From: Halarcobacter mediterraneus
Lineage (GTDB): Bacteria; Campylobacterota; Campylobacteria; Campylobacterales; Arcobacteraceae
Assembly: GCF_004116625.1 (NCBI RefSeq)
Contig: NZ_NXIE01000002.1
Span: 434,001 to 498,000, forward strand
Length of the DNA: 64,000 nucleotides
Reading direction: 5' to 3'
The translations under genes were made by a program, and so were the position numbers. Each line of letters opens with the position of its first letter. Position 1 is the first letter of the stretch. This document shows positions 1,498 to 53,091 of this stretch, piece by piece. A model generated the notes under the pieces. That model saw only the letters and a program-made list of their open reading frames with translations. It had not been told where the DNA came from and ran no database searches.

Positions 1498-3034
<1,537 letters not shown>

Positions 3035-3037
3035 TAA

Positions 3038-4234
3038 TTAATCCTCTAAAACCAAAGCTTTAACACCTGGTAAAACTTTTCCTTCTATTAACTCTAAAGA
3101 AGCTCCACCACCTGTTGAAATAAAAGTCATGTCTTCTTCATCTCCTGTAACTCTTACTAAGTCAGCAGTATCTCCACCACCAACTACAGTCGTTGCATAT
3201 GATTGAGCTACAGTATTTGAAATCCTAGTACTACCTTTTGCAAATTTTTCCATTTCATAAACACCCATTGGTCCATTCCATAAAATTGTATTTGCATCTC
3301 CTAAAGCAAGTCTAAATAATTGTGCTGTAGCAGGTCCAATATCAAGTCCCATCCAAGACTCAGGTATTTCTTGTGTAGTTACAAGTTTTGCCATTGCTTC
3401 TGCATCAAAAGCTTCTGCAGCGACTACATCTACAGGTAAATAAAGTTTTACACCTAATTGTCTTGCTTCTTCAAGTATTTTTAAAGCCTCAGGAATTAAA
3501 TCATCTTCTACTAATGATTTTCCTACTTCATATCCTTGTGCTTTTAAGAAGGTAAAAGCCATACCTCCACCAATAAGTATTTTATCAACTTTAGTGATTA
3601 AATTATGTAAAACTTCAAGTTTTCCTGATACTTTTGAACCACCAACAATAGAAACAAAAGGTCTTTTTGGATTTTGTACAATATTATGAAAAAATTTAAT
3701 TTCTTTCGCTAATAGAAATCCTGCAGCTTTATGTTTTATATCAAAGTACTCAGTTATAGCTTGAACCGATGCATGAGCTCTATGAGACACTCCAAAGGCA
3801 TCATTTACATAAACATCAGCCATTGAAGCTAGTTTTTCAGCAAATTCTGGATCATTTTTCTTTTCACCAGAATGATATCTTAAATTTTCAAGAAGTAAAA
3901 CTTCTCCTGCTTGTAAGTTTTTTGCTAATTCTAAAGTATCATCTTCTACTACATTTTTTGCAATTTTTATTTCTTGTTTTAATAAAGTATGTAACCTCTT
4001 TGCCACAGGTTTTAGAGAATATTTTTCATCACCTGGTTTTTCTGGTCTTCCAAAATGCGAAGCTAAAATAATAGAACAATCTCTATCAATACAATATCTA
4101 ATAGTATTTAAAGCTGATTTTATTCTTCTATCATCTGTAATATTATTATATTCATCCATAGGAACATTAAAATCACATCTTATAAATACTTTTTTCCCAT
4201 CAATATCGATATTTCTAATTTCTTGTAGTTTCAT
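3038..4234 (-). CDS. pgk: Phosphoglycerate kinase
   Basis: Transfers the acyl phosphate of 1,3-bisphosphoglycerate to ADP, or the reverse in gluconeogenesis. The 398-residue length is standard. The N-domain begins with the RCDFNVP signature, has the substrate-binding HFGRP and [10 protein letters not shown] segments, and the nucleotide domain shows [30 protein letters not shown] and [16 protein letters not shown]. It lies between gap and tpiA with 8- and 3-base gaps, so expression is coupled to both. Confidence 0.97.
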
Positions 4235-36388: not shown

Positions 36389-37975
36389 TTAACTAGTAAT
36401 AAATATTCTAAAATCGATAAAATTAAATATTGAATTTTTATATTCTAAATACTCTAATCTATCTATATCGATATTATAGTCATCTATCATACCAAGTAAT
36501 TCATTAAAATTTGATATATGCTCTTTTGTTCTATTTACACTATATTCAGTAGCTGTTGCTGTTGTCATTAAAAAAGCCCAATCACTACTTTGAGCTAATA
36601 ATAATTCTCTTAACATCTGATTTAAAACTCTTGTTGTATTAAAATCACTAACATTAAAATACTCAGATGCTCTTTCTTCCATTACATCTGCCATATTATG
36701 TAAATGTCTATAAATCCAAGCATTACCTTCATTTAACCAAACATCATAATACCCTTGATCTCCCCAAGAAGAAGGATTTGGCTCTTGCATCTGATTTTTT
36801 GGATACATATTTAAATACTCAATTGGAGTAATAGCTTTTATAACTTTATGTTCATCTATTTGTTTAAAAAGATTATATAAAAATTCAGGACCTTCAAACC
36901 ACCAATGTCCAAATAATTCTGCATCATAAGGAGAAACAATAAGAGGTGTTCTATCCATTAAACTTGATAAATGTTCAAATTGTTTTTCCCTATTATGATG
37001 AAAGTTTTCAGCATGTCCAATAGTTTTTTGTTTTGCAACAAATGGTTCATAAACTTCTTTATAATTACTTGTACCTGTTATTTTATGATATTTAAATCCT
37101 GTAAAAACTCTTACTCCATCTGGATTTATATATGGTTTTATATAATCAAAATCTAAGTCATATCCAATATCTCTATAAAAGTCTCTATAAGAGAAATCTC
37201 CAGGATAACCTTCTTTTGAACTCCAAACTTGTTTTGAAGATTCTCCATCTCTTCCAAATGCAGCAACAGAACTTGGTGTATACGTTGGAGCAAATACTCC
37301 ATTTAAAGAAGTTGGTTTTCCAAATGTTAAAGCATGGGAATCTACAATAAAGAATTTAATTCCTTTTTCTTTTAAAATCTTATCAAGTCCCTCGTAATAG
37401 GCACACTCAGGAAGCCAAATTCCTTTTGGTTTTCTTCCAAAATGTTTTTCATGGGCTTTTACTGCTACTTCTATTTGAGTCCTAACTGCTTTTTCATTTA
37501 CACTTAATATAGGTAAGAAACCATGTGTTGCACCACAAGTTATAACTTCTACTTTTCCACTATTATAAAAATATCTATATCCATTTAAAACATTTTTATT
37601 TAAAAAACCATCAAAAAACTCTTTTGTTTCTAAAAACATATTTTGATAAAATAAAGATATTTCTTTAAAGTTTTCATCATTTTTAGTTCGTTCTACTTCT
37701 TTTTGAGCTAATTCTAGTTGTTTTATTAAATACTTTTCATATTTTTCCATTAAATGTCTATCATCTAACATTTCAGCTAAAGGTGGTGTTACAGAAGTTG
37801 TTAATCTAAAATCTATATTTTCATCTTCTAGTTTTTTCAATCTTTGTAAAAGAGGAATATAACACTCAGTAATAGCTTCAAAAAGCCAATGTTCTTCTAA
37901 AAAGTTGTCATAATCTGGGTGCTTAACAAAGGGTAAGTGTGAGTGTAAAACTGGTGTCCAATATCCTTTAAGCAT
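36389..37975 (-). CDS. GH57 1,4-alpha-glucan branching enzyme (DUF1957 type)
   Basis: Predicted to form alpha-1,6 branches in glycogen. I place the start at the second ATG (MLKGYWTPVLHSHLPF) because GGAGGT lies 4 bases upstream, inside the first-ATG extension. The 528-residue protein has the GH57 signature HSHLPF, the nucleophile region WLPECAYYEG (E190 from this start) and the acid/base region SPYDAELFGHWWFEGPEFL (D351), the form specific to GH57 branching enzymes such as TK1436/TTHA1902. It overlaps the DUF4912 gene by 8 bases. No GH13 GlgB is in the window. Confidence 0.88.
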   Translation of the reverse strand: MLKGYWTPVLHSHLPFVKHPDYDNFLEEHWLFEAITECYIPLLQRLKKLEDENIDFRLTTSVTPPLAEMLDDRHLMEKYEKYLIKQLELAQKEVERTKNDENFKEISLFYQNMFLETKEFFDGFLNKNVLNGYRYFYNSGKVEVITCGATHGFLPILSVNEKAVRTQIEVAVKAHEKHFGRKPKGIWLPECAYYEGLDKILKEKGIKFFIVDSHALTFGKPTSLNGVFAPTYTPSSVAAFGRDGESSKQVWSSKEGYPGDFSYRDFYRDIGYDLDFDYIKPYINPDGVRVFTGFKYHKITGTSNYKEVYEPFVAKQKTIGHAENFHHNREKQFEHLSSLMDRTPLIVSPYDAELFGHWWFEGPEFLYNLFKQIDEHKVIKAITPIEYLNMYPKNQMQEPNPSSWGDQGYYDVWLNEGNAWIYRHLHNMADVMEERASEYFNVSDFNTTRVLNQMLRELLLAQSSDWAFLMTTATATEYSVNRTKEHISNFNELLGMIDDYNIDIDRLEYLEYKNSIFNFIDFRIFITS

Positions 37976-38609
37976 TTTTACCTCCATTGATAAAAGAAGA
38001 TGAACTCAAACTTTCTTTTTCATATTGTTCAAATTCTTTAAGTCTTTCAAGTTCTTCTACATATTTTGATGATGACATTCCTAATGTAAAATGTGTCATT
38101 GTTGAACGAATTATCTCTGTAAATCCATTAGTTTTATTAATCCAAACTTCACTATCTTTTGTTGGAAGTTTTATTTTTGTATTAAATGTATGAATAGTAT
38201 TAGAAGCTAAAATTTCAATAAATTTAGAGTTTCTATATATTCCTACTTTTACTTGAATATCTAAATCTTCTATTTTTTCTTTTAAAAAATATTCTCCTAG
38301 AGCAAATTTTGAATCGAATGAATATAATTCATTTCCTTCATTTATAACTTTAAAATATAGTTTATCTTTTTGTAAATTTATCCCATATTCTTCCAAAGTA
38401 AAATCACTAAATTCCCAATATATATAAAACTTAGAAGTATTAACTAATACTATTCTAAGGTAATCTTTATTATATCTTGAAGGAATTGTAAATTTTAATT
38501 TTTGTTCATCTACTTCTTGAGCTAGAGTATCAATTGTATGAGATGAGCTAGAAAAACTATCATCTACTTCTATACTTTTATTTAATAAATCTTGGGTTTT
38601 TGAACTCAT
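37968..38609 (-). CDS. DUF4912 domain protein
   Basis: A 213-residue soluble protein with a DUF4912 core (about 45-140: YLRIVLVNTSKFYIYWEFSD and following) and low-complexity Ser-rich termini. No enzyme motif is visible. It overlaps the GH57 branching enzyme by 8 bases and follows pgm by 68 bases. I recall DUF4912 genes next to GH57 or glycogen genes in other bacteria, so a carbohydrate-binding or regulatory accessory for branching is plausible, but this is inference. Confidence 0.75.
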   Translation of the reverse strand: MSSKTQDLLNKSIEVDDSFSSSSHTIDTLAQEVDEQKLKFTIPSRYNKDYLRIVLVNTSKFYIYWEFSDFTLEEYGINLQKDKLYFKVINEGNELYSFDSKFALGEYFLKEKIEDLDIQVKVGIYRNSKFIEILASNTIHTFNTKIKLPTKDSEVWINKTNGFTEIIRSTMTHFTLGMSSSKYVEELERLKEFEQYEKESLSSSSFINGGKNA

Positions 38610-38677: not shown

Positions 38678-40288
38678 TTATTTAAAAACTTCTGAAGCAA
38701 TTTTTTTTGCATCACCTTGAATAAGTTTAAGATGATTTTTATCAATAAAACTTTCTGCATATATTTTATAAATATCTTCTGTACCAGAAGGCCTTATTGC
38801 AAACCATCCATTCTTACTAAGTACTTTTAATCCACCTATTTTAGCACCATTAGTAGCTATTGTTAAAATTTGTTCAATTTTCTCTCCTGCTAAAACCTCT
38901 TGTTTTATATCTTCAGGTTTTAAGTTCTTTAAAACTTTTTTTTGTTCACTATTAGCAGGAGCATCAATTCTTTCATAAACTGGGTTTCCATATTTTAAAA
39001 CAAGTTTATCATAATATTCGCCTGGGTCAAGCTTTGTTTTGGCTAAAATTTCTGCAGCTAAAAGATTTAATATTATTCCATCTTTATCAGTAGTCCATAC
39101 TTCTTTATTTTTTCTTAAAAAAGAAGCCCCTGCACTCTCCTCTCCTGCAAAAAATATTTTCTTTTTTACTAAAGGTTCAACAAACCATTTAAATCCAACT
39201 GGTGTTTCAATTACTTTTATATTGTTATCTTCTGCAACTTTATCTATCATAGAACTAGAAACAAGTGTCTTCCCAATAGCTAAATCAGAGAAGTCTCTAT
39301 TTTTTGCTAAATAATCAATTGCCACAGCTAAATAATGATTAGGGTTTAATAAACCAGAACTTTTAGTTATAATTCCATGTCTATCAAAATCAGTGTCATT
39401 ACCAAATGCAATATCAAAATCATCTTTTAATTTAATTAAAGAGGCCATTGCAAAGGAAGAAGAACAATCCATTCTTATCTTCCCATCTTTATCACAAGTC
39501 ATAAAAGAAAAAGTAAAATCTACATAATCATTAAATATTTGCATATCTAAATCATATTTTTCTTTTATTGCTTTATAATATTCAATTCCTGAACCACCCA
39601 TTGCATCAGCAGCTATTTTTAATTTTGATTCTTTTATTGCTTTTATATCAATAATATTTTCTAAATCATTTACATAAGGAGTTACATAATCATATTCATG
39701 AATAAAGCCACTTTTTATAGCATCTTCTAAATCAATAATATTAACATCTTCTAAATCATTCATTAAAATCTCATTAGCTCGTTGTTCTATTATTTTAGTA
39801 GTTTCTTCATTTGCTGGTCCTCCATCACAAGAGTTATACTTAAACCCTCCATCACTTGGGGGATTATGAGAAGGAGTAATAACTATTCCATCACTATTTT
39901 TATTAGTTAAAATTGCATGAGAAATTACAGGTGTAGGAGTATAAGAAAAATTCTTTGCATAAAAGGTTTGAATTTTATTCCCAGCTAAAACCTCTAAAGT
40001 TGTTTTATGTGCAGGAGTTGACAAAGCATGGGTATCCATTCCTAAAAATAGTTTTTCATGACCTTGTTTCTTATGATATTCTGCCACAGCTTGAGCCATT
40101 GCCATTATATGTTTTTCATTAAAACTATTTTTACTTGAACTTCCTCTATGTCCAGAAGTTCCAAAAGATATTAACTGTTCCTTATTAGAAAGATTAGGAG
40201 TTCTTGTATAATAATCACTTACTAAAAGAGCAATATTTTCCAAGATTTCCTTTGGGGCAGTTTTCCCGGCATTCTTATGTAAACTCAT
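38678..40288 (-). CDS. pgm: Alpha-D-glucose phosphoglucomutase
   Basis: Interconverts glucose 1-phosphate and glucose 6-phosphate, linking the glucan enzymes to glycolysis. The 536-residue protein matches the long E. coli Pgm type: FGTSGHRGSS, the phosphoserine loop ITPSHNPPSDGGFKYN, the metal loop FGNDTDFDRHG (all Asp present), the sugar-specificity loop AGEESAGASFL, and the C-terminal RPSGTEDIYKIYAES. All catalytic elements are intact, unlike the PMM domain encoded at 46449. Confidence 0.95.
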   Translation of the reverse strand: MSLHKNAGKTAPKEILENIALLVSDYYTRTPNLSNKEQLISFGTSGHRGSSSKNSFNEKHIMAMAQAVAEYHKKQGHEKLFLGMDTHALSTPAHKTTLEVLAGNKIQTFYAKNFSYTPTPVISHAILTNKNSDGIVITPSHNPPSDGGFKYNSCDGGPANEETTKIIEQRANEILMNDLEDVNIIDLEDAIKSGFIHEYDYVTPYVNDLENIIDIKAIKESKLKIAADAMGGSGIEYYKAIKEKYDLDMQIFNDYVDFTFSFMTCDKDGKIRMDCSSSFAMASLIKLKDDFDIAFGNDTDFDRHGIITKSSGLLNPNHYLAVAIDYLAKNRDFSDLAIGKTLVSSSMIDKVAEDNNIKVIETPVGFKWFVEPLVKKKIFFAGEESAGASFLRKNKEVWTTDKDGIILNLLAAEILAKTKLDPGEYYDKLVLKYGNPVYERIDAPANSEQKKVLKNLKPEDIKQEVLAGEKIEQILTIATNGAKIGGLKVLSKNGWFAIRPSGTEDIYKIYAESFIDKNHLKLIQGDAKKIASEVFK

Positions 40289-40300
40289 TTTTAACCTTTT

Positions 40301-41950
40301 TTAGTTTTGATATTTATACATTAACTCGTAATATTCATGTGCCATTCGTCCAGAGTCAAAAGCTGGAATTACATCTGAAATAGAGTTTTTCTTTACTTTC
40401 AACCACTCTTTTGTATTATCATAATAAAGAGGAATAATTTTGTTTTCTAAAACATCCATTAAGTTTTTATTATCTATTCTATCTTGTTCTTCAATACTTA
40501 AATTCCTTGTTTCAGTAGGGATTGTAAAACTATTGATCCCTTCTTTACAAAATTCAGGATGCCAACCATCTGCAATTGATAAATTTATGGCACCATTCAT
40601 AGCTGCACTCATTCCACTTGTACCACTAGCTTCCCTTGTAACTCTTGGGGTATTAAGCCAAATATCACTACCTTTTTTAAGTTTCATTGATAGATCTAAT
40701 TCATATCCTACTAAAACTGCAATATTTTTGTAAGACCTTGCCATATAATTTATTTCATTAAAAATATTTATTGCTTGTGCATCAAAAGGATAAGGTTTTC
40801 CTGCCCAAATAATTTGCACAGGATATTCTTCATTTGTAATTAATTTATTAAATCTCTCTAAATCATATTTTAAAAGCCCTGGTCTTTTATATTCCGCAAA
40901 CCTTCTTGCCCAAATTATAGTTAAAATATTTTCATCAAACATTTTTCCTGTTTGGTTAGCAACCTCATCAAATAATTGTCTTTTTAAGTGTTTTTTTCTT
41001 GCATCAAGTTCATATTCTTCATGCTCATCTAAAGCTCTTAAAAGAGGTTTATCTGCCCAATATCTCCTATTTTGAGCATTTGTGATAGAAATTATTTTAC
41101 ATTTATTCTCAACATAATTCCACATCTCATTTGCAACTTCACCATGGATTTTTGAAACTCCATTTGCTATTTTTGCAAGTCTTAAAGCACCAACGGTAAG
41201 AGAAAATCTATCTGAAGTAATACCTGTAATATTTCTAACTTCTTCTAAAGGTACTTCTGAGAAGAATCCCATTTTCTCTAATAAATTAATATCATGTTCT
41301 TCATTTCCTGCTGTTTCAGGAGTATGGGTTGTAAAAACAACTCTTTTCTTTACTTCTTCTAAATTTTTATATTTTCTATATAATTCAAAAGTCATAGGCA
41401 AAGAGTGACCTTCATTCATATGATAAATTTCTGGTTCTAAATTCAAAGCTTCTAAAATTTTTGCCCCACCAACACCAAGTACAATTTCTTGAGCAATTCT
41501 AGTTTCATTATTTGCATCATATAATTTATGGGTAATAGTTCTTGATAAATAATCATTTTCTTCCACATCAGTTGATAAAAGAATCATTGGTGCTGTACTA
41601 AATAAATTACTTGGAAGTAAAAAAGCTTTTACTATAACTGGTATAGAATTGATATTTACAGTAACACTTACATCTAAATCTTTTAAAAAGAAATATCTCT
41701 TTCTTCTAAACTCTACTTTTAAGTATCTATCTTCATCTCTTGATTGGTCATAATAACCATAGCTCCAAAGCATACCAACACCAATTATATTTTGGTTTAA
41801 GTCAAAGGCACTTCTCATATGAGAACCTGCTAAAAATCCTAAGCCCCCTGAATATATTTTTAATGCTTGATGGATTGCAAACTCCATAGAAAAATAAGCA
41901 ACACTTTTTGAATATTTTTCATCTATTTCATAACTATGTAAATGACTCAT
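40301..41950 (-). CDS. glgP: Alpha-glucan phosphorylase-like protein with Ser at the PLP-lysine position
   Basis: A GT35-type protein of the short alpha-glucan phosphorylase family (549 residues): SMEFAIHQALKIYSGGLGFLAGSH at the N terminus (quoted in parts), YHMNEGHS, FTTHTPETAGNEEHD, ARRFAEYKRPGLL (nucleotide/phosphate site) and the C-terminal TREASGTSGMSAAMNG. In phosphorylases the last motif reads GTSGMKAA and the Lys forms the Schiff base with PLP; here it is Ser (S448, codon AGT at 40607-40609). The protein may therefore not use PLP. It is between pgm and glgA in the operon, 2 bases after glgA. Role is either degradation by another mechanism or a sugar-nucleotide dependent transferase. 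Confidence 0.8.
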   Translation of the reverse strand: MSHLHSYEIDEKYSKSVAYFSMEFAIHQALKIYSGGLGFLAGSHMRSAFDLNQNIIGVGMLWSYGYYDQSRDEDRYLKVEFRRKRYFFLKDLDVSVTVNINSIPVIVKAFLLPSNLFSTAPMILLSTDVEENDYLSRTITHKLYDANNETRIAQEIVLGVGGAKILEALNLEPEIYHMNEGHSLPMTFELYRKYKNLEEVKKRVVFTTHTPETAGNEEHDINLLEKMGFFSEVPLEEVRNITGITSDRFSLTVGALRLAKIANGVSKIHGEVANEMWNYVENKCKIISITNAQNRRYWADKPLLRALDEHEEYELDARKKHLKRQLFDEVANQTGKMFDENILTIIWARRFAEYKRPGLLKYDLERFNKLITNEEYPVQIIWAGKPYPFDAQAINIFNEINYMARSYKNIAVLVGYELDLSMKLKKGSDIWLNTPRVTREASGTSGMSAAMNGAINLSIADGWHPEFCKEGINSFTIPTETRNLSIEEQDRIDNKNLMDVLENKIIPLYYDNTKEWLKVKKNSISDVIPAFDSGRMAHEYYELMYKYQN

Positions 41951-41952
41951 TA

Positions 41953-43380
41953 TTATCCTTTATAAATTTCTATATACTTTTTAATTGAGTTTGTCCACGA
42001 ATTATCAACACCCATATTATGCTTAGATATTTTTTCAAATTTTGGTTTATTTGAATATAAAGATAAAGCCTTTGCAAGTGCATGATTAAACCAAAAAAGA
42101 TTATGCTCAAAAAAGCTTATTCCTATTCCTGAATTAAAATTATCTATATCATCTATATTTGTAAAATCACTTACCGTATCCCTCAGTCCACCGGTTTCAC
42201 AAACAAGAGGTAAGACTCCATACTGCATACTAATCATTTGATTTAAACCACAAGGCTCAAAAGTGGATGGCATTAGTAAAAAATCTGCTGCAGCATAAAG
42301 TTTTCTTGAAAACTCTTCGTTATATCCTATTTCTATATGTATATTTTTATATCTACCTTTTATAGAATCAAAGGCTTTTGTATAAAACTCTTCTCCACTT
42401 CCTAAGAATATAAAATTAGCTTCATAAGATCTTATTAGATTTATTGATTCAAGTAATAAATCAACTCCTTTTTGAGAAGTGAATCTTCCAATAAAAATAA
42501 ATATAGGTCTATTAGAATCTTCTAAATTTAAATTTTCTATTAGCTTCTTCTTATTTATATATTTCTTTTCATAACTTTCTAAAGAGAATTGTTCATATAA
42601 AAACTTATCAGTTTTAGGATTGAAAACTTCTGAACTTATTCCATTTACAATTCCCGAAAGTTTGTAAGCATTTGAACGTAAAACATCATCTAAATCTTTA
42701 CCAAATGCAGAAGTTTGAATTTCATTGGCATAAGTTTCACTTACTGTTGTAACTTTATCACTAAAATTTATACCTGCTTTTAAATAGTTAACATTATCAT
42801 AATACTCTATACCACTAAATTTAAAACAAGCATCCCAATCTAATTCTAACTCATTCATTAAGCTTTTTGGGAAAACTCCTTGATAGGCTAAATTATGAAT
42901 TGTTAAAACTATTTTTTGAGATAAATGATATTTCGTTTTTGCAAGTAATGCAAGTAATGAAGTTTGCCAATCATTAATATGAATCACATCTATTTTTAAT
43001 TTTTTTCTTAGCATTAATTCTATAACTGCATATGAAAAAAGTCCAAATCTTAATCCATTGTCTCCAAAATCTCCATATTCATCATCATAAAGTCCTAATC
43101 TATCACATAAGATTGGGTTATATATAAAAAACTCATTTTGAGAATCTTCTTTACAAAAAATATCAAATTGATGTCTTATTCCATTTAAATAATAATCAAA
43201 ACTCAATCCACTATATATGATAGAGAATTTCTTTCTATCAACTTGATTATATAAAGGCATAACTGTATAAACACCTATATTCTCTTTTCTTAGTTCTAAG
43301 GGTAAAGAGTATGCTACATCAGCTAACCCTCCACTTTTAGCATAAGGAAAGATTTCACTTGCTACAAATAAAATATTCAA
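41953..43380 (-). CDS. glgA: Glycogen/starch synthase
   Basis: Extends alpha-1,4-glucan from a nucleotide-glucose donor. The 475-residue GT5 protein starts with TTG (TTGA overlap with the galT-like stop), has FPYAKSGGLADV with the donor-binding KSGGL loop, and PSTFEPCGLNQMISMQYG with the catalytic glutamate near the C terminus. There is no glgC in the window, so the donor may come from the fused nucleotidyltransferase or the GalT-like enzyme of the same operon; GlgA donor preference (ADP-, UDP- or GDP-glucose) cannot be read from the motif. Confidence 0.92.
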   Translation of the reverse strand: MNILFVASEIFPYAKSGGLADVAYSLPLELRKENIGVYTVMPLYNQVDRKKFSIIYSGLSFDYYLNGIRHQFDIFCKEDSQNEFFIYNPILCDRLGLYDDEYGDFGDNGLRFGLFSYAVIELMLRKKLKIDVIHINDWQTSLLALLAKTKYHLSQKIVLTIHNLAYQGVFPKSLMNELELDWDACFKFSGIEYYDNVNYLKAGINFSDKVTTVSETYANEIQTSAFGKDLDDVLRSNAYKLSGIVNGISSEVFNPKTDKFLYEQFSLESYEKKYINKKKLIENLNLEDSNRPIFIFIGRFTSQKGVDLLLESINLIRSYEANFIFLGSGEEFYTKAFDSIKGRYKNIHIEIGYNEEFSRKLYAAADFLLMPSTFEPCGLNQMISMQYGVLPLVCETGGLRDTVSDFTNIDDIDNFNSGIGISFFEHNLFWFNHALAKALSLYSNKPKFEKISKHNMGVDNSWTNSIKKYIEIYKG

Positions 43381-44375
43381 TTTTTCTCCTTGTAAACACT
43401 ACAAGCTTTATTAGGATATATTACATTCATTGTCATATGAGTACTTAACTCAAATCCTGCGTATTTATATATTCTTGGAATTATTTCAATATTAAATCTA
43501 AAATACTCTTTTGTTTTTTCATCATATTCAAAATAAGGAGCATTATTAATTATCATATTAAAACTAACATCACCTAAAGCTTTATAAAACATATAAAAAA
43601 ACTCTTTTGTTATATCACTTAAAGAACTTAATTCACTTTGAGTAAATTCACTAAGTGAAGAAAGTTTTTTTAAAGATACTATTTTTACTTCAAAAGGGTT
43701 TCTTGAAGCATAAGGACAATAAACTACAAAATCAGAATTACTAAGCACTATATTTTTTTTATATTGTAATTCTTCATAAACTAAATCATCTAATAAAGCT
43801 CTTGAAGTCTTCTTATAATAGGCTTTTTTATGTTTAATTAAGTCTTTAATTTTCTTAGGTAAAAAAGGTAAAGCCATTATTTGAGAATGGGAATGCTTTA
43901 TTGATGCACCTGCTTCTTTACCTTGATTTTTAAAAACACTTATAAAAGCTAATCTAGAGTCTAATTGTAAATTAGAAACCCTTTGTTGAATTATTGAAAA
44001 ATAGTTTATAAAATCATTATAATCATAATCAAATATTTGTTTATCATGATTTGGAGTTTCTATCACTATTTCATGAGCACCCATTCCTGTTTTTTTTTCA
44101 AAATATTTATCTCTAAAACTTTCTAAGTTAATATCCACACTTAAAGCATTAAACATATTAGGAACAACTCTACACTTCCATTTATTATCTTGTTCAATTC
44201 TAGTTATCTCATTGGGAGTAAACTCTTCTTTTCCTAAATCAAAAGGACAATTATCATGAATCAACTCCCCTGGTTGTTCATCTTTTTTATTATCTAAATC
44301 TGTAGGTCTTTTTAGTCTTTGAGGAGCATATAAAACCCATTCTTCATATAACTTACAATATCTAAATTCAGACAT
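43377..44375 (-). CDS. GalT-like nucleotidyl transferase (HIT superfamily)
   Basis: Member of the galactose-1-phosphate uridylyltransferase/ADP-glucose phosphorylase family. I start it at MSEFRYCKLYEEW, whose ATG overlaps the stop of the GH57 gene (TAATG). The 332-residue protein has the active-site GASIKHSHSQIMALPF, an HxHxQ motif with nucleophile H163, and ETPNHDKQ. The usual CPFC zinc pair is CPFD here. No galK or galE is nearby; in a glycogen operon the family is more likely to act on glucose 1-phosphate with ADP or UDP sugar. Assignment within the family is uncertain. Confidence 0.8.
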   Translation of the reverse strand: MSEFRYCKLYEEWVLYAPQRLKRPTDLDNKKDEQPGELIHDNCPFDLGKEEFTPNEITRIEQDNKWKCRVVPNMFNALSVDINLESFRDKYFEKKTGMGAHEIVIETPNHDKQIFDYDYNDFINYFSIIQQRVSNLQLDSRLAFISVFKNQGKEAGASIKHSHSQIMALPFLPKKIKDLIKHKKAYYKKTSRALLDDLVYEELQYKKNIVLSNSDFVVYCPYASRNPFEVKIVSLKKLSSLSEFTQSELSSLSDITKEFFYMFYKALGDVSFNMIINNAPYFEYDEKTKEYFRFNIEIIPRIYKYAGFELSTHMTMNVIYPNKACSVYKEKN

Positions 44376-46456
44376 TAAATATACCAACTTTTTAAAAACA
44401 AATTTTCAAAATCAAAAACTACTTTATCATATTTTGGATACATTTGAATAACGTTATTTTTTTCTAAAAGTTCAAAAGAAAAATCTGCTTTTTTTAAATT
44501 AAAATTTTCAAGTTTTAATTCTAAGCCCATATCAAAAGCTATAATAAAACTTTTTTCTTTTTGTTCTAACTTTCTTCTTTCTCTTTTTAGGTCAAATATA
44601 TAATCTGTATTATCAATTTCTATTTTTATTTTTAAATCTTTTTTTAAATCTTTTAACTTTTGACCTTCAAAATAAATATATAAACAATGTTCCCTATCTA
44701 TTCCATAATATAGTTTTTCAATTATTGATGTAGAGTCCATTGTACTAAACTCTTTTTTAATATCAATATAACCGCTATTTAGCCATTCAAAAAAGTTACT
44801 CATATTTCCATCAACAGTTGGTCTTATATAGTCTGTTGGTGTTTTATTTGTAATATTTTTAGAACTTTTTTCAACAATTAAATCAAAAACTTCTTTTGGT
44901 ACTTCTTGATTCATTAATTCATAAATATTTTTTATATGAAATCTAAATTGTTCATCAAAATAATGATTTACATCACTATAATGGTCATCTCCATACCACC
45001 AAAACCAATCACTTCCTAAAGCTATTAAAAACTCTTCATCAATTTTTTCTATTGTTTCTTTATCTAAGTTTTCTCTTTGAATATCAAAGTTATTTTTTAC
45101 TGTATCAAGAAGTTGCCAAGCTTTATTTTTTTCACAAGAACCAATCCAAATATCAAAATTACCATTTATCCAACTGCCAGTTGCCAATGTTGATAACTTT
45201 TCTGCTTTTAAATCTTCTATATTTTCTGTTTCATCAAATAATATAGTTTTACACCATGAAGTCTCTTTTTCCAATAAAGAATAAAGTTCTTCAAAAAAGT
45301 CCCAAGCATTGTTTTTATAAAAGTCCCAAGCATTTTCTCCATCTAAGATGATAGGAACAATACAAGATTCTTTAGAATCTAAATAAATATTTTTTAAATG
45401 ATTGATAAAATCTTGTGCTGCTTCTTTAGGTTCTTTTTTGCTAAAATCAAAACCTATCAAATCACTTAAATACTTGTCCCTAAAAAATATATTTATTTTC
45501 TCATCTTCCAGTTCTAAAAAATATGGTTTATAAAGTAGCTCTTTATTGTATGAACCTAAAGATTTAAATAAAACTTCTTCATCACTACAAAACCATTTGA
45601 TTTGATTTTCATTTAAAAGTTTTGCTGTTTTTAAACTTACACTTCCTTCACTAGGCCAAAAACCTTTTGGCTTAAAATTAAAAGTATTTTGAAAATACAT
45701 AATAGCTTTTTTGACTTGTAAAGAAGCATACTCTTCATAAGTAGCAAGGGAAGAAGGAAGATTTACATCATGTCTTGCTTCTTTTGCACTATTTCTATCA
45801 AGAAGAAGAGGAAGAATAGGATGATAAAAAGGTGTAGTTGAAATATCTATTTGCCCTTTTTCATCTAAACTTTTATAAAAAGGAATTATTTCTTTTAAAA
45901 ACTCTAAAAGTTCTTCTATTAGGCTTAATTTTTCAGCTCTTGAAAAATCTCTTTGTTTTTTTAATAACTCTTTTATTAAAAAACTTTCACTTCTTAAATA
46001 ATTCCCACACCAAGAAAGTAAAAATAGAGTTTGTAAATCTAAAACCTCTTGGTTTGAGAAATTGTCTAAACTTTTATTTTCACTTTTAAATTTAATTCTT
46101 AATTCATTAAAGCGAGGAAGAGGCTTAATCATATTTTCTTCATTACATAAAAATAGGTATTCTTCTAAAAAGTCTTTTTCTTCAACTTTTAAGAAATTTA
46201 CATCTTTCTTTAAAATATCTAATAACTTGTCATTTGCTGTTCCATCTATATAAGCTTCAAGTTGAGTAAGTAAAGAAGGTACTAAGTTAAAAGTAGCTTT
46301 TAGTTTATCAAACCTACTTAAATACCAAGGGATATCATAGTAATCTTTTATTGCATGTAAAAATACCCAAGGCATAGTTGTTATATCTTTACTGTTATCT
46401 TTATAATAAGGTTGATGCATATGCCATAAAAATGACAAATATAATGTTTTATTCAC
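44375..46456 (-). CDS. GH57 family alpha-amylase/glucanotransferase
   Basis: A 693-residue GH57 glycoside hydrolase of the COG1449 type. Catalytic landmarks: HMHQPYYKD (12-20), the nucleophile motif GFWPSEGSVS (E270), and the acid/base motif ILDGENAWDFY (D372). The C-terminal 250 residues form a separate beta-rich domain found in these amylases. A direct 16-base repeat (45295-45310 and 45319-45334) duplicates the NAWDF peptide next to the acid/base residue. The gene overlaps the nucleotidyltransferase gene upstream by 8 bases. Likely degrades or remodels the storage glucan; hydrolysis versus transglycosylation cannot be decided. Confidence 0.85.
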   Translation of the reverse strand: MNKTLYLSFLWHMHQPYYKDNSKDITTMPWVFLHAIKDYYDIPWYLSRFDKLKATFNLVPSLLTQLEAYIDGTANDKLLDILKKDVNFLKVEEKDFLEEYLFLCNEENMIKPLPRFNELRIKFKSENKSLDNFSNQEVLDLQTLFLLSWCGNYLRSESFLIKELLKKQRDFSRAEKLSLIEELLEFLKEIIPFYKSLDEKGQIDISTTPFYHPILPLLLDRNSAKEARHDVNLPSSLATYEEYASLQVKKAIMYFQNTFNFKPKGFWPSEGSVSLKTAKLLNENQIKWFCSDEEVLFKSLGSYNKELLYKPYFLELEDEKINIFFRDKYLSDLIGFDFSKKEPKEAAQDFINHLKNIYLDSKESCIVPIILDGENAWDFYKNNAWDFFEELYSLLEKETSWCKTILFDETENIEDLKAEKLSTLATGSWINGNFDIWIGSCEKNKAWQLLDTVKNNFDIQRENLDKETIEKIDEEFLIALGSDWFWWYGDDHYSDVNHYFDEQFRFHIKNIYELMNQEVPKEVFDLIVEKSSKNITNKTPTDYIRPTVDGNMSNFFEWLNSGYIDIKKEFSTMDSTSIIEKLYYGIDREHCLYIYFEGQKLKDLKKDLKIKIEIDNTDYIFDLKRERRKLEQKEKSFIIAFDMGLELKLENFNLKKADFSFELLEKNNVIQMYPKYDKVVFDFENLFLKSWYI

Positions 46457-48932
46457 TTATCCACTTTTCTATTTTATCTTGATATTTATAAAAAATCTTT
46501 CCAGCAGTTTTTTCATCTTCTGCTTGAACATATATATTTAAATATTCAGCATATTGATCTGGAACCATTAAAATCCATTGGTCTTCATCTATCCAAATTT
46601 TAACTCCATCAACAGAAGAACTTTTTTTCTTTTTTGCATCTTCAAGGAATTTTCTCATTATTTTCCCTTTTTTAGAGCTAGGGCAAGAGATATTCTCCCC
46701 TTTGAAACAAAATTTAGGAAGATTATTTACAATTTTTGATAATCTAACATTTGCCTTTTGAATCAATTCCAATATTTTAAAACTTGTAAAGATTGCATCT
46801 TTATTCAAGCCAAATTCACTAAAAGCAAAATGTCCATCTGTATCAGCAATTAAATCATATTCTCTTAATTCATCTGCTTTAAAGTTTGTTAATTTTGCTC
46901 TTGTGATATTTAAGTTTTTATAATTTACAAAATCAGGTGCCCAAGCAGGAAGTAATATATTTAGTTGCTTCGAACTAGTGATATCAAGTAACTGTAACAT
47001 TACAAGAAGCATTTTATAGTCATAAATTAACTCACCCTCATCATCTACTACTTGGATTTTATGTCCATTTGGATAGATTAAAAAACCACAACTTAGATTA
47101 ACTCCTCTTACAATATCTTGCATATTTTGTTGAAATTTAACTATATCAAAAGCTTTTCTTTTTTCTGTTTGATGAGCATTTAAAATTATATTTTCAATAC
47201 CTAATTCATTTATAATTACAGGATAAATATCTGAAGTTGAACCATTCATTATATCAACAGCTACTTTTAACTCAGAAGATTGAAACATTTTAATATCAGA
47301 AGAGTTTATTATTTGCTTAATATAGTTTTCTCTTAATTGATTATCTTCACAAACAGAACCTATTTCTAAATGATTTACTCTCCTAAAATTTTCTCGAAAA
47401 AATACTCTTTCAATTGCTTGAGATAATTTGCTATCTAAAAGTAAGCCCTCATTTGTATAAAAAATTATCTGTGTTTGAGTTGAATCATAAACTGATTGTC
47501 TAAGGTGAACACCAGCAATAATATTACCATTTTTACTCAAACTATGTCTCATTACATTTGAAGGAACATTTTTAGGATCAACTACATTAACTCCTGTAGA
47601 TAAGATACCACTTAAAAAAGCTCTTTTTAACATAAATGAAGTATTGTGATAGTCCCTTGAAATATAAATACTACTTCCTACAGGCAAAGTTGAACCAAAA
47701 GCTTCAGCTAATTTAGTAGACATTTGACAAGACAATTCAACATTTGTTCTTCCTATTACTGAACCATTTTCAAAAATTGAGGATTTATATTTATTCCCCC
47801 AAATTATATTTGTACTTACAACAGAAGAAGCTTCTACTATTTTTTCAGGCCATATAATAATATCTTTTTCAAAGGATACTTTTTTATTAATTTCACAATC
47901 TTCTGCAATTGTAACTCCATATGGAGCTTTTACTTCATCTTTAATAATATTATCATTACAAATCACACTATTATTTAATTTTACTTTTGCACCTATTGAA
48001 GTATTTTCCCAGATGATTGAGTCTAAGACTTCAGAGTGTTTTTTTACTTTTACATTGTCTCCTAAAACACAATCTTTTAAAGTTACACCTTCAGCAATAC
48101 TTACATTCTTACCTAGTACAACAGTTCCTTTTAATCTTACTTTTTCTGGAAGTTCTACATTCTCTTCCATAAAAACTTTTGCATTAGAGATATTTTTTTC
48201 TTCACCTTTAAAACTTAACTTTATTTGCTCATCAAAAATATCCTTATATACATCTCTATAACTTTTTGGATTTCCTACATCTCTCCAATAACCTTCTAAA
48301 GAATATCCCCATAAAGGTATTTCTTCAGCCATTAAACTAGGAAATAAATCTTTTGCAAAATCAAAATCTTGTTTATAAGGAATATAATCTAATATTTCAG
48401 GTTCGATTACATAAATTCCCGTATTTATAGTATCACTAAAGACCTCTCCCCAACTAGGTTTTTCTAAGAATCTTACAATTCTTTCATCTTCATCTGTAAT
48501 AACAACTCCAAACTGTAAAGGGTTTTCTACAGAAGTTAAAGTTATTGTTAGTTTTGATTTCTTCTTTTCATGGAATTTCTTGATTTTTTTAAAGTCAAAG
48601 TTTGTAACTAAATCTCCACTTACAATAATAAAAGTCTCATCTAAAAACTCCCTTGCAAAAGCAACAGCACCTGCTGTACCATAATCATCATCTGGTTGAA
48701 AATAAGTGATATTTACACCTAAATCTTTTCCATCTTTAAAATAGTCTTTTATTATTTCAGGCTTGAAATATAGCAAAACTGCTATTTCTGTAATACCAAG
48801 TTCATCTCTTAATTTTAAGATAATATGTTCCATCATAGGTCTATTTAAAATTGGTAACATTGGTTTTGGAATAGAGTTTGTAAGGGGTTGTATTCTAGTT
48901 CCGAAACCTCCTGCTAAAACTATTGCTTTCAT
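46449..48932 (-). CDS. Sugar-phosphate nucleotidyltransferase fused to degenerate phosphomannomutase domain
   Basis: An 827-residue protein. Residues 1-235 form a nucleotidyltransferase (AGGFGTRIQPLT, FVSGD-type IIVSGDLVTNFD, FLEKPSWGE, EGYWRDVG), then a left-handed beta-helix (about 250-395), then a phosphohexomutase-like domain (about 400-827). The mutase domain is inactive by motif: TASHNP is replaced by GVHLRQS (474-480), the DGDADR metal loop by YPNGHK (620-625) and the RPSGTEP loop by PDQYAEY. The same degeneration exists in the mannose-1-phosphate guanyltransferase family of Actinobacteria and Cyanobacteria as I recall. In this operon it may supply nucleotide-glucose for GlgA in place of GlgC. 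Confidence 0.85.
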   Translation of the reverse strand: MKAIVLAGGFGTRIQPLTNSIPKPMLPILNRPMMEHIILKLRDELGITEIAVLLYFKPEIIKDYFKDGKDLGVNITYFQPDDDYGTAGAVAFAREFLDETFIIVSGDLVTNFDFKKIKKFHEKKKSKLTITLTSVENPLQFGVVITDEDERIVRFLEKPSWGEVFSDTINTGIYVIEPEILDYIPYKQDFDFAKDLFPSLMAEEIPLWGYSLEGYWRDVGNPKSYRDVYKDIFDEQIKLSFKGEEKNISNAKVFMEENVELPEKVRLKGTVVLGKNVSIAEGVTLKDCVLGDNVKVKKHSEVLDSIIWENTSIGAKVKLNNSVICNDNIIKDEVKAPYGVTIAEDCEINKKVSFEKDIIIWPEKIVEASSVVSTNIIWGNKYKSSIFENGSVIGRTNVELSCQMSTKLAEAFGSTLPVGSSIYISRDYHNTSFMLKRAFLSGILSTGVNVVDPKNVPSNVMRHSLSKNGNIIAGVHLRQSVYDSTQTQIIFYTNEGLLLDSKLSQAIERVFFRENFRRVNHLEIGSVCEDNQLRENYIKQIINSSDIKMFQSSELKVAVDIMNGSTSDIYPVIINELGIENIILNAHQTEKRKAFDIVKFQQNMQDIVRGVNLSCGFLIYPNGHKIQVVDDEGELIYDYKMLLVMLQLLDITSSKQLNILLPAWAPDFVNYKNLNITRAKLTNFKADELREYDLIADTDGHFAFSEFGLNKDAIFTSFKILELIQKANVRLSKIVNNLPKFCFKGENISCPSSKKGKIMRKFLEDAKKKKSSSVDGVKIWIDEDQWILMVPDQYAEYLNIYVQAEDEKTAGKIFYKYQDKIEKWISE

Positions 48933-51093: not shown

Positions 51094-53091
51094 ATGAAAA
51101 CTGAACTATTATTTGGAGTACATTGTCATCAACCTGTTGATAATTTTGATAAGGTAGTTTATGAAATTATAGAAAAGTCTTATAAACCATTTTTTACTAC
51201 TTTAAAACAATTCCCTGAATTTAAATGTTCTGTTCACTTTAGTGGTTGGCTTTTAGAATTTATAAAAACAAACGATAAAGAACTTTTTGATTTATTAAAA
51301 AGCTTAACTAAGCAGTTAGAGTTTTTTACAGGTGGTTTTTATGAACCTATTTTAGCTTCAATTCCTAGCTTTGATAGAATAGAACAAATAAATATGCTTT
51401 CAGATTATATTGAGGAAAACTTTAAACAACGTCCAAGGGGGTTATGGCTTACTGAAAGAATTTGGGATGACTCGATAATAGATGATTTAAAAAAATGTAA
51501 TATTGATTATGTAATGGTAGATGATTACCATTTAATTGCTTCAGGATTTGATAAGTCAAACCTTAAAGGATACTTTCTAACAGAGAATAGCAATGATAAA
51601 ATTGCTTTATTTCCTATTAATAAAGATTTACGTTATATGATTCCTTTTTCTAATATTGATAATACTATGAACAAATTAAACTCTTTTTCCAATGAAAAAG
51701 GCAAAAATGCTGCAATAATCTTTGATGATGGTGAAAAATTTGGAGTTTGGCCTAAAACTCATGAAAGAGTATATGAAAAACAATGGTTAGAAAAGTTTTT
51801 TAAATCTTGTATTGAAGATGATAATATTAATATTTCTACTTTTTGTGAGTTCTATGATAATAATAAAGCTATTTCACTAAGCTATTTGCCTACAGTTTCT
51901 TATCATGAAATGGGAGAATGGTCTGTTTTACCAAATATTTCAGATGATTATTATGATTTATTATCAAGAAATATGCATCAAGAGTATTTAATAAGAGGTG
52001 GTATTTGGAAAAACTTCTTTTTGAAATATAATGAAAGTAATTGGATTCATAAAAGAGTTTTACAATTATCAAAAGAAGAGAATCAAACAGAAGAATTTAA
52101 AAACTTATTATTTAAAGCACAATGTAATGATGTTTTATGGCATGGTGTTTTTGGAGGTATTTATCTTCCAAATTTAAGAGACAATGCTTATAAATATATA
52201 ATTCAATGTGAGAATCTTTTAAACAAAGAAAACTCTTGTACGAAATATGATATTAATATAGATTCTATTAATGAATATAAATATTATACAAAAAATTTAA
52301 TAGTAATTATTGACCCAAAATTAGCAGGACAAATAGTAGAACTAGACTTAAAAGAAAAACTATTTAATTACCAAAATACTCTTACTAGATATAGTGAACC
52401 TTATCATAAAAAAATAGAAAAAAAAGATAGCCTAGAAGAAGTAGAAATAACGACAGAAGATGAAATTGATAATATTCATACTAATACTTTATCAACAAGT
52501 GAAGACGTTGAGTTTTATAAGGATTGGTATTTAAAAAAATCTGCTATTGACCATATATGTGATAATTCATTAAACTTAGAGAAGTTTAAAACTTGTACCT
52601 TCAAAGAGTATGCAGATTTTGCAAATCAAGAATTCGAAGTTTTAAAACAAAATAACAATTCACTATCTTTAAAAAGAATTGGTGGGGTTTACAAAGAAGA
52701 AAAATTTGAAACTACTTTACAAAAAGAATTTGACTTTTTAAAAAATGAAATATCTTCAAATATAAAAATAACTACAGAATGTAACGAGTCTTTAAAATAT
52801 TTATTAGAGTGGAATTTACACTTCCAAGTTTATGATATAGTAACAATTAATGGTCATAATGTAAATGAAGAATTAAAACTTGAAAATTCTCAATTAACTA
52901 TTATTGACCAAAGTTTAAATAGAACTATCTTTTTTCAATTTGACCAATGTGTTGATATTTATATGTACCCTGTAAAAAGTGTTAGTCAAAGTGAAATAGG
53001 AGTTGATTATACAATTCAAGGTTTATGTTTTAGTTTTTCTTTAGAGTTCAAATCAATATTAGATTTAAAATATAGTGTAACTATTAAATAA
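51094..53091 (+). CDS. GH57 4-alpha-glucanotransferase-type enzyme
   Basis: A 665-residue GH57 protein of the Thermococcus litoralis 4-alpha-glucanotransferase/amylase type: N-terminal catalytic barrel with GVHCHQPVDNF (8-18), nucleophile motif RGLWLTERIW (E121) and IFDDGEKFGVWP (D211-D212), followed by a large C-terminal beta domain (about 400-665, DUF1925/DUF1926-like). Enzymes of this type move maltooligosaccharides between chains. It is divergent from gap2 and has an AAGGA ribosome site, so it is likely co-regulated with the operon while transcribed separately. Confidence 0.85.
   Translation: MKTELLFGVHCHQPVDNFDKVVYEIIEKSYKPFFTTLKQFPEFKCSVHFSGWLLEFIKTNDKELFDLLKSLTKQLEFFTGGFYEPILASIPSFDRIEQINMLSDYIEENFKQRPRGLWLTERIWDDSIIDDLKKCNIDYVMVDDYHLIASGFDKSNLKGYFLTENSNDKIALFPINKDLRYMIPFSNIDNTMNKLNSFSNEKGKNAAIIFDDGEKFGVWPKTHERVYEKQWLEKFFKSCIEDDNINISTFCEFYDNNKAISLSYLPTVSYHEMGEWSVLPNISDDYYDLLSRNMHQEYLIRGGIWKNFFLKYNESNWIHKRVLQLSKEENQTEEFKNLLFKAQCNDVLWHGVFGGIYLPNLRDNAYKYIIQCENLLNKENSCTKYDINIDSINEYKYYTKNLIVIIDPKLAGQIVELDLKEKLFNYQNTLTRYSEPYHKKIEKKDSLEEVEITTEDEIDNIHTNTLSTSEDVEFYKDWYLKKSAIDHICDNSLNLEKFKTCTFKEYADFANQEFEVLKQNNNSLSLKRIGGVYKEEKFETTLQKEFDFLKNEISSNIKITTECNESLKYLLEWNLHFQVYDIVTINGHNVNEELKLENSQLTIIDQSLNRTIFFQFDQCVDIYMYPVKSVSQSEIGVDYTIQGLCFSFSLEFKSILDLKYSVTIK

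Follow-up and report, generated by a model that had tools for sequence, protein, structure and literature searches.

A homologue of the GT35 alpha-glucan phosphorylases, encoded in the window (the whole stretch of 64,000 nucleotides analysed here), carries serine at the position of the lysine that holds PLP in these enzymes. It belongs to a large multi-phylum clade in which, and this is the new element, the loss of Lys448 is mirrored by the gain of K425 in an exact exchange.

Serine at the PLP-lysine position

The window protein scores 465.9 bits against the NCBIfam profile TIGR02094 (cut-off 191.7), which places it in family GT35. Its sole Pfam match at E 0.001 is PF00343 (58 bits, cut-off 27), with an alignment confined to residues 299-465. 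The GT5 profile TIGR02095 is absent from the five families matching the protein at E 0.001, leaving it without a GT5 profile match; PF05693 of the GT3 glycogen synthases has no match in the source genome either.

Residue 448 is encoded by ACT on the forward strand, thus AGT (Ser) on the reverse strand, within EASGTSGMSAAMNG. In a 299-row alignment it occupies the column of E. coli MalP K646, named as the PLP-carrying lysine in PMC11046441. The preliminary description had read a serine at the Schiff-base position of a phosphorylase homologue, and both codon and column bear this out. With Ser448 the protein lacks the PLP-lysine motif GT[SG][GN]xK; as this defining lysine is absent, we do not class it among the PLP-dependent phosphorylases, though it is GT35 by homology.

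The agreement of 235 distinct relatives rules out that S448 reflects an isolated mutation or a sequencing error, and a pseudogene is ruled out by the intact frame and a dN/dS of about 0.12 against four relatives. Judging from these ratios (0.107-0.129, at dS values of 0.93-1.64 that bring the comparison near saturation), selection on the gene is purifying.

The structural model, based on 84 aligned sequences (mean pLDDT 94.4, pTM 0.93), has the GT-B fold. Its best match is the glycogen phosphorylase of Segatella copri (9l6i; VIA Z 35.5, rmsd 2.0, 536 residues aligned, 34% identity), followed by E. coli MalP (1l5v, Z 33.3) and then by many other phosphorylases. Starch and glycogen synthases reach Z 32.1-32.3.

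Table 1. Coordinates of the features discussed (window positions, except for the last row).
Feature	Position	Strand	Details
GH57 glycogen branching enzyme	36389..37987	-	PF03065, PF09210
DUF4912 protein	37968..38609	-	PF16258, 40.6 bits
Phosphoglucomutase (PGM)	38678..40288	-	adjoins the GT35 gene on the side opposite GlgA; TIGR01132 759.5 bits, slightly below the cut-off of 778.05; four PGM_PMM domains
GT35 homologue without PLP lysine, 'alpha-glucan family phosphorylase'	40301..41950	-	open reading frame, ATG start, 549 aa
S448 (AGT), PLP-lysine position	40607..40609	-	alignment column of MalP K646
E440, glucose-site glutamate (presumed)	40631..40633	-	MalP E638; E in 235/235 clade members and 43/43 Lys448 sequences
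K425 (AAA), clade-specific lysine	40676..40678	-	MalP I623; K in 235/235 clade members
S421, clade-specific	40688..40690	-	MalP A619; S in 235/235; A/G in 43/43 Lys448 sequences
E417, clade-specific	40700..40702	-	MalP C615; E in 235/235; D/G/N/S/C in 43 Lys448 sequences
K355, phosphate-site lysine	40886..40888	-	MalP K540; K in 235/235 clade members and 43/43 Lys448 sequences
R350, phosphate-site arginine (presumed)	40901..40903	-	MalP R535; R in 235/235 clade members and 43/43 Lys448 sequences
H209, glucose-site histidine (presumed)	41324..41326	-	MalP H346; H in 235/235 clade members and 43/43 Lys448 sequences
GT5 glycogen synthase GlgA	41953..43380	-	adjoins the GT35 gene; TIGR02095 491.4 bits, cut-off 328.45
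GalT-like hexose-1-phosphate nucleotidyltransferase	43377..44387	-	TIGR00209 112.7 bits, cut-off 102.1
GH57 protein	44375..46456	-	PF03065, 189.6 bits
NTP_transferase / hexapeptide / PGM fusion	46449..48932	-	827 aa; PF00483, PF02878, others
GH57 alpha-amylase / 4-alpha-glucanotransferase	51094..53091	+	PF09095, PF03065, PF09094
L314, Lys-bearing sister of the clade	1986-3710 (G703)		575 aa

Spread, origin and pocket of the variant

An alignment of GT35 around residue 448, proposed in the preliminary description as a check, separates two groups. The 235 distinct relatives of the window protein have Thr (134), Ser (99) or Ala (2) and never Lys; the 43 other distinct GT35 sequences collected all have Lys. 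Sequences count as distinct when they differ within residues 301-545, and rows shorter than 500 aa, contig-edge fragments shorter than 530 aa and repeats were left out. Searches without any condition on the residue supplied at least 138 of the distinct non-Lys and 30 of the Lys sequences. The preliminary description suspected a PLP-independent subfamily, with Thr in proteins of Bacteroidota. It is borne out in part: a GT35 subfamily without the PLP lysine exists, and it may or may not be PLP-independent. The 235 sequences come from Campylobacterota, Bacteroidota, Verrucomicrobiota, Gastranaerophilales and a few other groups, and all 29 loci from the Bacteroidota search have Thr (five more, taken by place, have T or S).

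Within the family of the source organism, 19 of 104 genomes have a match; in 18 it is the short form, whose residue 448 is S, T or A, and the nineteenth match, 37% identical, has K there. Among 397 Campylobacterota genomes, 75 have a match: the short form occurs in 69 (67 at full length, read by hand), the long form of about 700 aa in 16, and both forms in 11 (counted by hand). The full-length short forms fetched (61-82% identical) all have S, T or A, and the intact long forms fetched all have K; in two genomes (G406, G417) the short form is present as fragments only. In one further genome of this phylum (G153) the GT35 gene lies in three pieces, a broken long form without the motif (L084), and TIGR02095 is likewise below its cut-off.

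A scan of genome contigs for the S/T form of the motif gave at least 119 stretches, and all 119 listed encode homologues. Among the matches listed are Bacteroidota (Chitinophagaceae, Chryseobacterium, Pedobacter, Hymenobacter, Algoriphagus and others), Verrucomicrobiota (Akkermansia, Prosthecobacter, Luteolibacter), Campylobacterota and Gastranaerophilales, together with a small number of contigs labelled Halopseudomonas, Sphingomonadales, Beijerinckiaceae and Desulfurellales. Two pattern matches in IMG/VR (L106, L107) encode no homologue by phmmer. Since the contig scan selected for S/T, it is silent on the absence of Lys, and residue-blind searches were therefore made in two more phyla, Bacteroidota (296 genomes) and the phylum of Gastranaerophilales (244 genomes). 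The fetched matches (L241 upward) above 450 bits have S or T in 80/80 cases, 15 of them in genomes found by the pattern, and those below 450 bits have K in 13/13. The presumed Gastranaerophilales contributed roughly 100 variant matches, of which 29 new loci and two taken by place were fetched, all with S. Verrucomicrobiota were found solely through the S/T-selecting scan; whole-genome searches of two of them (G460, G470) returned the variant only. Two RefSeq plasmids, of Runella rosea (L227) and Pontibacter, carry clade members annotated glgP, 'alpha-glucan family phosphorylase'. A literature search over titles and abstract openings, outside most subscription papers, named no GT35 clade without the PLP lysine.

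In a 57-row IQ-TREE phylogeny rooted on E. coli GlgP/MalP, the 24 non-Lys rows form one clade (100/100), and residue 448 changes once in 100% of 200 bootstrap trees. The sister of this clade is the Lys-bearing L314 from a Bacteroidota-sample genome (100/98), below which more Lys-bearing groups branch (98/88). Two faster trees of more rows (115 and 76) likewise require a single change; all these trees include the Lys column, one of more than 550. In the earlier of the two fast trees, which did not contain L314, the Lys-bearing sequences (K-types) of TIGR02094 formed a single sister group with support of 86, a topology compatible with either polarity. As the sampled non-Lys rows are one clade with a Lys-bearing sister, the PLP lysine is, on this phylogeny, ancestral and lost once, a polarity that depends on the GlgP/MalP rooting. 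Under the same rooting, a relic of a PLP-free ancestor is ruled out, the clade being nested among Lys-bearing sequences. L314 has W62, N216, E217 and D300 in common with the clade and keeps the pocket state of the Lys group at D415, D417, G421, T425, F347, G346, G292 and H294. The variant of two Halopseudomonas genomes (L162, L178) branches among Bacteroidota sequences, which suggests acquisition by lateral transfer.

K425 lies 23 residues from S448, on the preceding helix of the same C-terminal domain. The 43 Lys448 sequences have V, I, T, Y or L there and never Lys, so that the two lysines are mutually exclusive: one or the other, never both, is found in 278/278 distinct sequences. Apart from E417 and S421 (Table 1), the clade is likewise altered, with few exceptions each, at G415 (248/255 variant rows against 0/43 Lys448 rows), W347, V/T346, A292 and N294. 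Seven residues, H209, N291, W298, R350, Y354, K355 and E440, are invariant in 235/235 clade members and 43/43 Lys448 sequences, and the protein thus has the complete glucose and phosphate set (H209, N291, R350, Y354, K355, E440), which we take to correspond to H377, N484, R569, Y573, K574 and E672 of rabbit glycogen phosphorylase. R350 is presumably the phosphate-site arginine, and E440 and H209 are presumably glucose-site residues. From structures of glycogen phosphorylase we also take it that the residues around the PLP ring are the counterparts of 416, 417, 418 and 421, and that 448 corresponds to the residue holding PLP. The lysine equivalent to K355, MalP K540, is named in PMC11046441. 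Conservation of at least 95% in both groups extends to Y33, G35, G36, R349, Y416, N433 and T444. With the glucose and phosphate residues invariant in both groups, those two sites are intact, and it is the cofactor side that has changed; by these residue patterns the cofactor pocket of the clade is rebuilt rather than merely broken. The model places residue 425 in a helix spanning 418-427 and S448 in one spanning 445-451; by helix position (two turns in for 425, about one for 448), it is doubtful that K425 reaches the PLP site.

Genomes and neighbourhoods

In the window, the variant stands in a same-strand run of glycogen and hexose-phosphate genes, in the order FBPase, GH57 branching enzyme, DUF4912 protein, PGM, GT35 variant, GlgA, GalT-like protein, GH57 protein, NTP_transferase-PGM fusion, PFK and GAPDH. 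Campylobacterota copies are mostly found among such genes, and within their glycogen cluster the NTP_transferase-PGM fusion recurs beside the variant; this fusion, with its hexapeptide part, is possibly a source of sugar nucleotide. Outside Campylobacterota no neighbour is conserved, the commonest neighbour family reaching only 15 of 99 loci with the variant. On the Runella rosea plasmid (L227, 11947-14082) the variant is followed after 30 bp by a same-strand gene for a 'pyridoxamine 5'-phosphate oxidase family protein', which may hint, weakly, at a link to PLP; no such gene was seen beside the Pontibacter plasmid copy.

The source genome encodes no other GT35 detectable with TIGR02094 and PF00343. 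A PF00343 search covered 59 genomes with the variant, nearly all outside Campylobacterota (15 traced from named loci, 32 additional Bacteroidota and 12 presumed Gastranaerophilales; the K-type sister is in a sixtieth genome, G703). No other GT35 was found in 58 of them, the exception (G770) combining the variant with a classical enzyme (1112 bits); two genomes (G571, G662) carry two copies of the variant each. By row count, the residue-blind Bacteroidota sample contains 33 variant-bearing genomes out of 296, none with another GT35. Of the remaining 263, 217 match the window protein, 166 strongly (E <1e-30) and 51 weakly (hand count); the weak matches may include GlgA or classical GT35, and one Campylobacterota match did turn out to be GlgA. 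The Bacteroidota pattern looks like functional replacement, a resemblance confounded by phylogeny.

In Campylobacterota, where the search for classical GT35 covered the source genome only, 58 of the 69 genomes with the variant are without a long Lys-type match and 11 carry the Lys-type too (hand count). Four genomes (G115, G131, G132, G137) have both in one same-strand cluster, for which two different functions fit better than replacement and which offers a natural pair for comparing function. Such same-strand clusters of both forms, at L070, L073, L074 and L075, also include two GH57 genes, PGM and the NTP_transferase-PGM fusion, which is split in L073.

A GT5 GlgA above the cut-off is present in 56/59 of the Campylobacterota genomes searched, including 51 of the 52 among them with the variant, and in 41/60 other genomes; 8 of the 19 left among the latter have a GT3 enzyme. 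The remaining 11 comprise three with a full-length GT5-like gene below the cut-off (G460, G463, G470), three that combine the variant and GlgB without a full-length GT5 or GT3 synthase (G465, G472, G590), in which chain elongation could fall to the variant, and five without either a full-length GT5 or GT3 synthase or a GH13 branching enzyme above the cut-off (G466, G469, G548, G583, G666; the 1.3-Mb assembly of G466 may be incomplete). The variant is tied to no single synthase type, and a general role as sole glycogen synthase is ruled out by these counts of GT5 and GT3.

Possible functions and known systems

The best explanation, to which we give about an even chance, is that the variant still acts on alpha-1,4-glucan as a phosphorylase whose cofactor site has been re-tooled. 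In this clade of short proteins (about 550 aa) the PLP lysine was, on the rooted phylogeny, lost once, and the invariant K425 gained on the preceding helix together with E417 and S421; the residues binding the glucosyl group and the phosphate were retained. The enzyme would still serve as the cell's glucan phosphorylase, a role suggested by its being usually the sole GT35 of its genome. We also count for this reading the low dN/dS and the fact that, of the solved structures, a glycogen phosphorylase comes nearest. Counting against it are the 11 Campylobacterota genomes with both forms and the five variant genomes with neither synthase nor branching enzyme. As for the cofactor, PLP might, tentatively and from the residue patterns, now be anchored by K425 across the pocket, which is the binding through another lysine named in the preliminary description as a refuting outcome, or, by analogy and with still lower probability, be gone, phosphorolysis proceeding with Pi and R350/K355 alone, as in the GT4 trehalose phosphorylase, which needs no PLP. 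Against re-anchoring stands the doubtful reach of K425, and no PLP fold type is known in which the Schiff-base lysine changed its place. The exact exchange of lysines and the retention of Y33, W298, Y416 and N433 in both groups favour re-anchoring, which we rate slightly higher. In PMC11046441, PLP of GT35 is described as acting through its 5'-phosphate, which would leave the anchor point chemically free to move.

That mode of action (PMC11046441) and the many conserved residues common to both groups would also suit an ordinary phosphorylase in which PLP sits non-covalently, and weakly held, in its old place. We consider this very improbable: it leaves unexplained the invariant E417, S421 and K425, and the absence of Lys448 from 235/235 distinct sequences. 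Somewhat easier to entertain, yet improbable too, is a protein without GT35 chemistry, be it a glucan-binding regulator, a pseudoenzyme or a transferase acting on another acceptor or donor. The residue defining the known mechanism is indeed lost, and the variable surroundings outside Campylobacterota imply no pathway; however, a pseudoenzyme would not need glucose and phosphate residues that are invariant in 235/235 sequences, and the Campylobacterota copies keep mostly to glycogen and hexose-phosphate genes.

A more serious competitor, which we hold possible but clearly short of even, is a nucleotide-sugar-dependent, possibly reversible alpha-glucan glucosyltransferase, with the nucleotide part of NDP-glucose in the vacated PLP site. 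Retaining GT-B enzymes have an EX7E motif with two Glu, and residue 448, being E440+8, presumably takes the position of the second Glu in the others. G415 of the variant matches the Gly before Tyr of GT5 synthases (21/23), a faint hint, as are the median scores against the GlgA profile: 22.0 bits for the clade (255 rows, 20 repeats) against 6.9 and 7.8 for the K-types (8 short and 35 long), whose inserts may lower their scores, and 18.8 for the variant against 9.3 for the K-type within Campylobacterota. Starch synthase IV (Z 32.3) and the glycogen synthase of E. coli (Z 32.2) are level with many phosphorylases, but ties of less than 1 in Z are uninformative, so the fold search speaks neither for nor against a synthase. 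The three genomes that hold the variant and GlgB with neither GT5 nor GT3 above the cut-off would fit such a transferase, as would the K-type and variant pairs clustered in four genomes. On the other side, the first-domain loop of the variant is the GT35-type YSGGL where GlgA of the window has KSGGL, a GT5 GlgA is already present in nearly all the Campylobacterota genomes with the variant that were searched, and S421 is not diagnostic of GT5 (S in 12, A in 10 and G in 1 of 23 GlgA). An NDP-sugar-dependent proto-GT35 that later gained PLP has been proposed (PMC11046441), but the clade is nested among K-types and hence is no relic of it. Put more broadly, we see a comparable, minority chance that the clade is a GT35 lineage without PLP in which a nucleotide, as NDP-glucose donor or free, would occupy the vacated site, with K425, E417 and S421 as predicted ligand contacts. 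Such use of a nucleotide may be a natural reversal of the replacement of nucleotide by PLP proposed for the ancestor of glycogen phosphorylase.

Textbooks present glycogen phosphorylase as the example of PLP being used for its phosphate and not its aldehyde. If PLP is re-anchored in the clade, a single enzyme family would contain a Schiff-base lysine that has moved. If instead the clade has given up PLP, its entry into GT35 would become open to direct test, since L314 and the clade are sisters that differ in the lysine. Either way, pathways of glycogen degradation deduced from the annotation 'alpha-glucan family phosphorylase' are unproven in many genomes.

Among known systems, the GT4 trehalose phosphorylase, likened here by description only, is also a retaining GT-family phosphorylase (PMC8950772), with trehalose as its substrate. 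The GT5 synthases (2qzs, 6gne) share with the clade the GT-B fold, Gly-Tyr in the equivalent loop and the absence of a PLP lysine; the variant genes, however, score 35.5-40.9 bits in Campylobacterota and 42.0-49.8 bits in the other genomes against TIGR02095 among the matches listed (cut-off 328.45), and the YSGGL loop and GTSGM motif are of GT35 type, unlike GT5. E. coli MalP and GlgP have the GT-B fold in common with the variant, which keeps the equivalents of MalP R535, K540, E638 and H346; MalP Lys646 is replaced in the clade by Ser/Thr and I623 by Lys, at 21% identity over 534 aligned residues. Closest of all, the S. copri glycogen phosphorylase (9l6i) belongs to the same TIGR02094 family and has the same glucose- and phosphate-site residues, but it is an enzyme of 852 aa with Lys in GTSGEKAEMNG, whereas the clade has S/T/A at this position together with K425, E417 and S421, and its open frames are shorter, with a median of 564 aa where the K-types have 720 aa.
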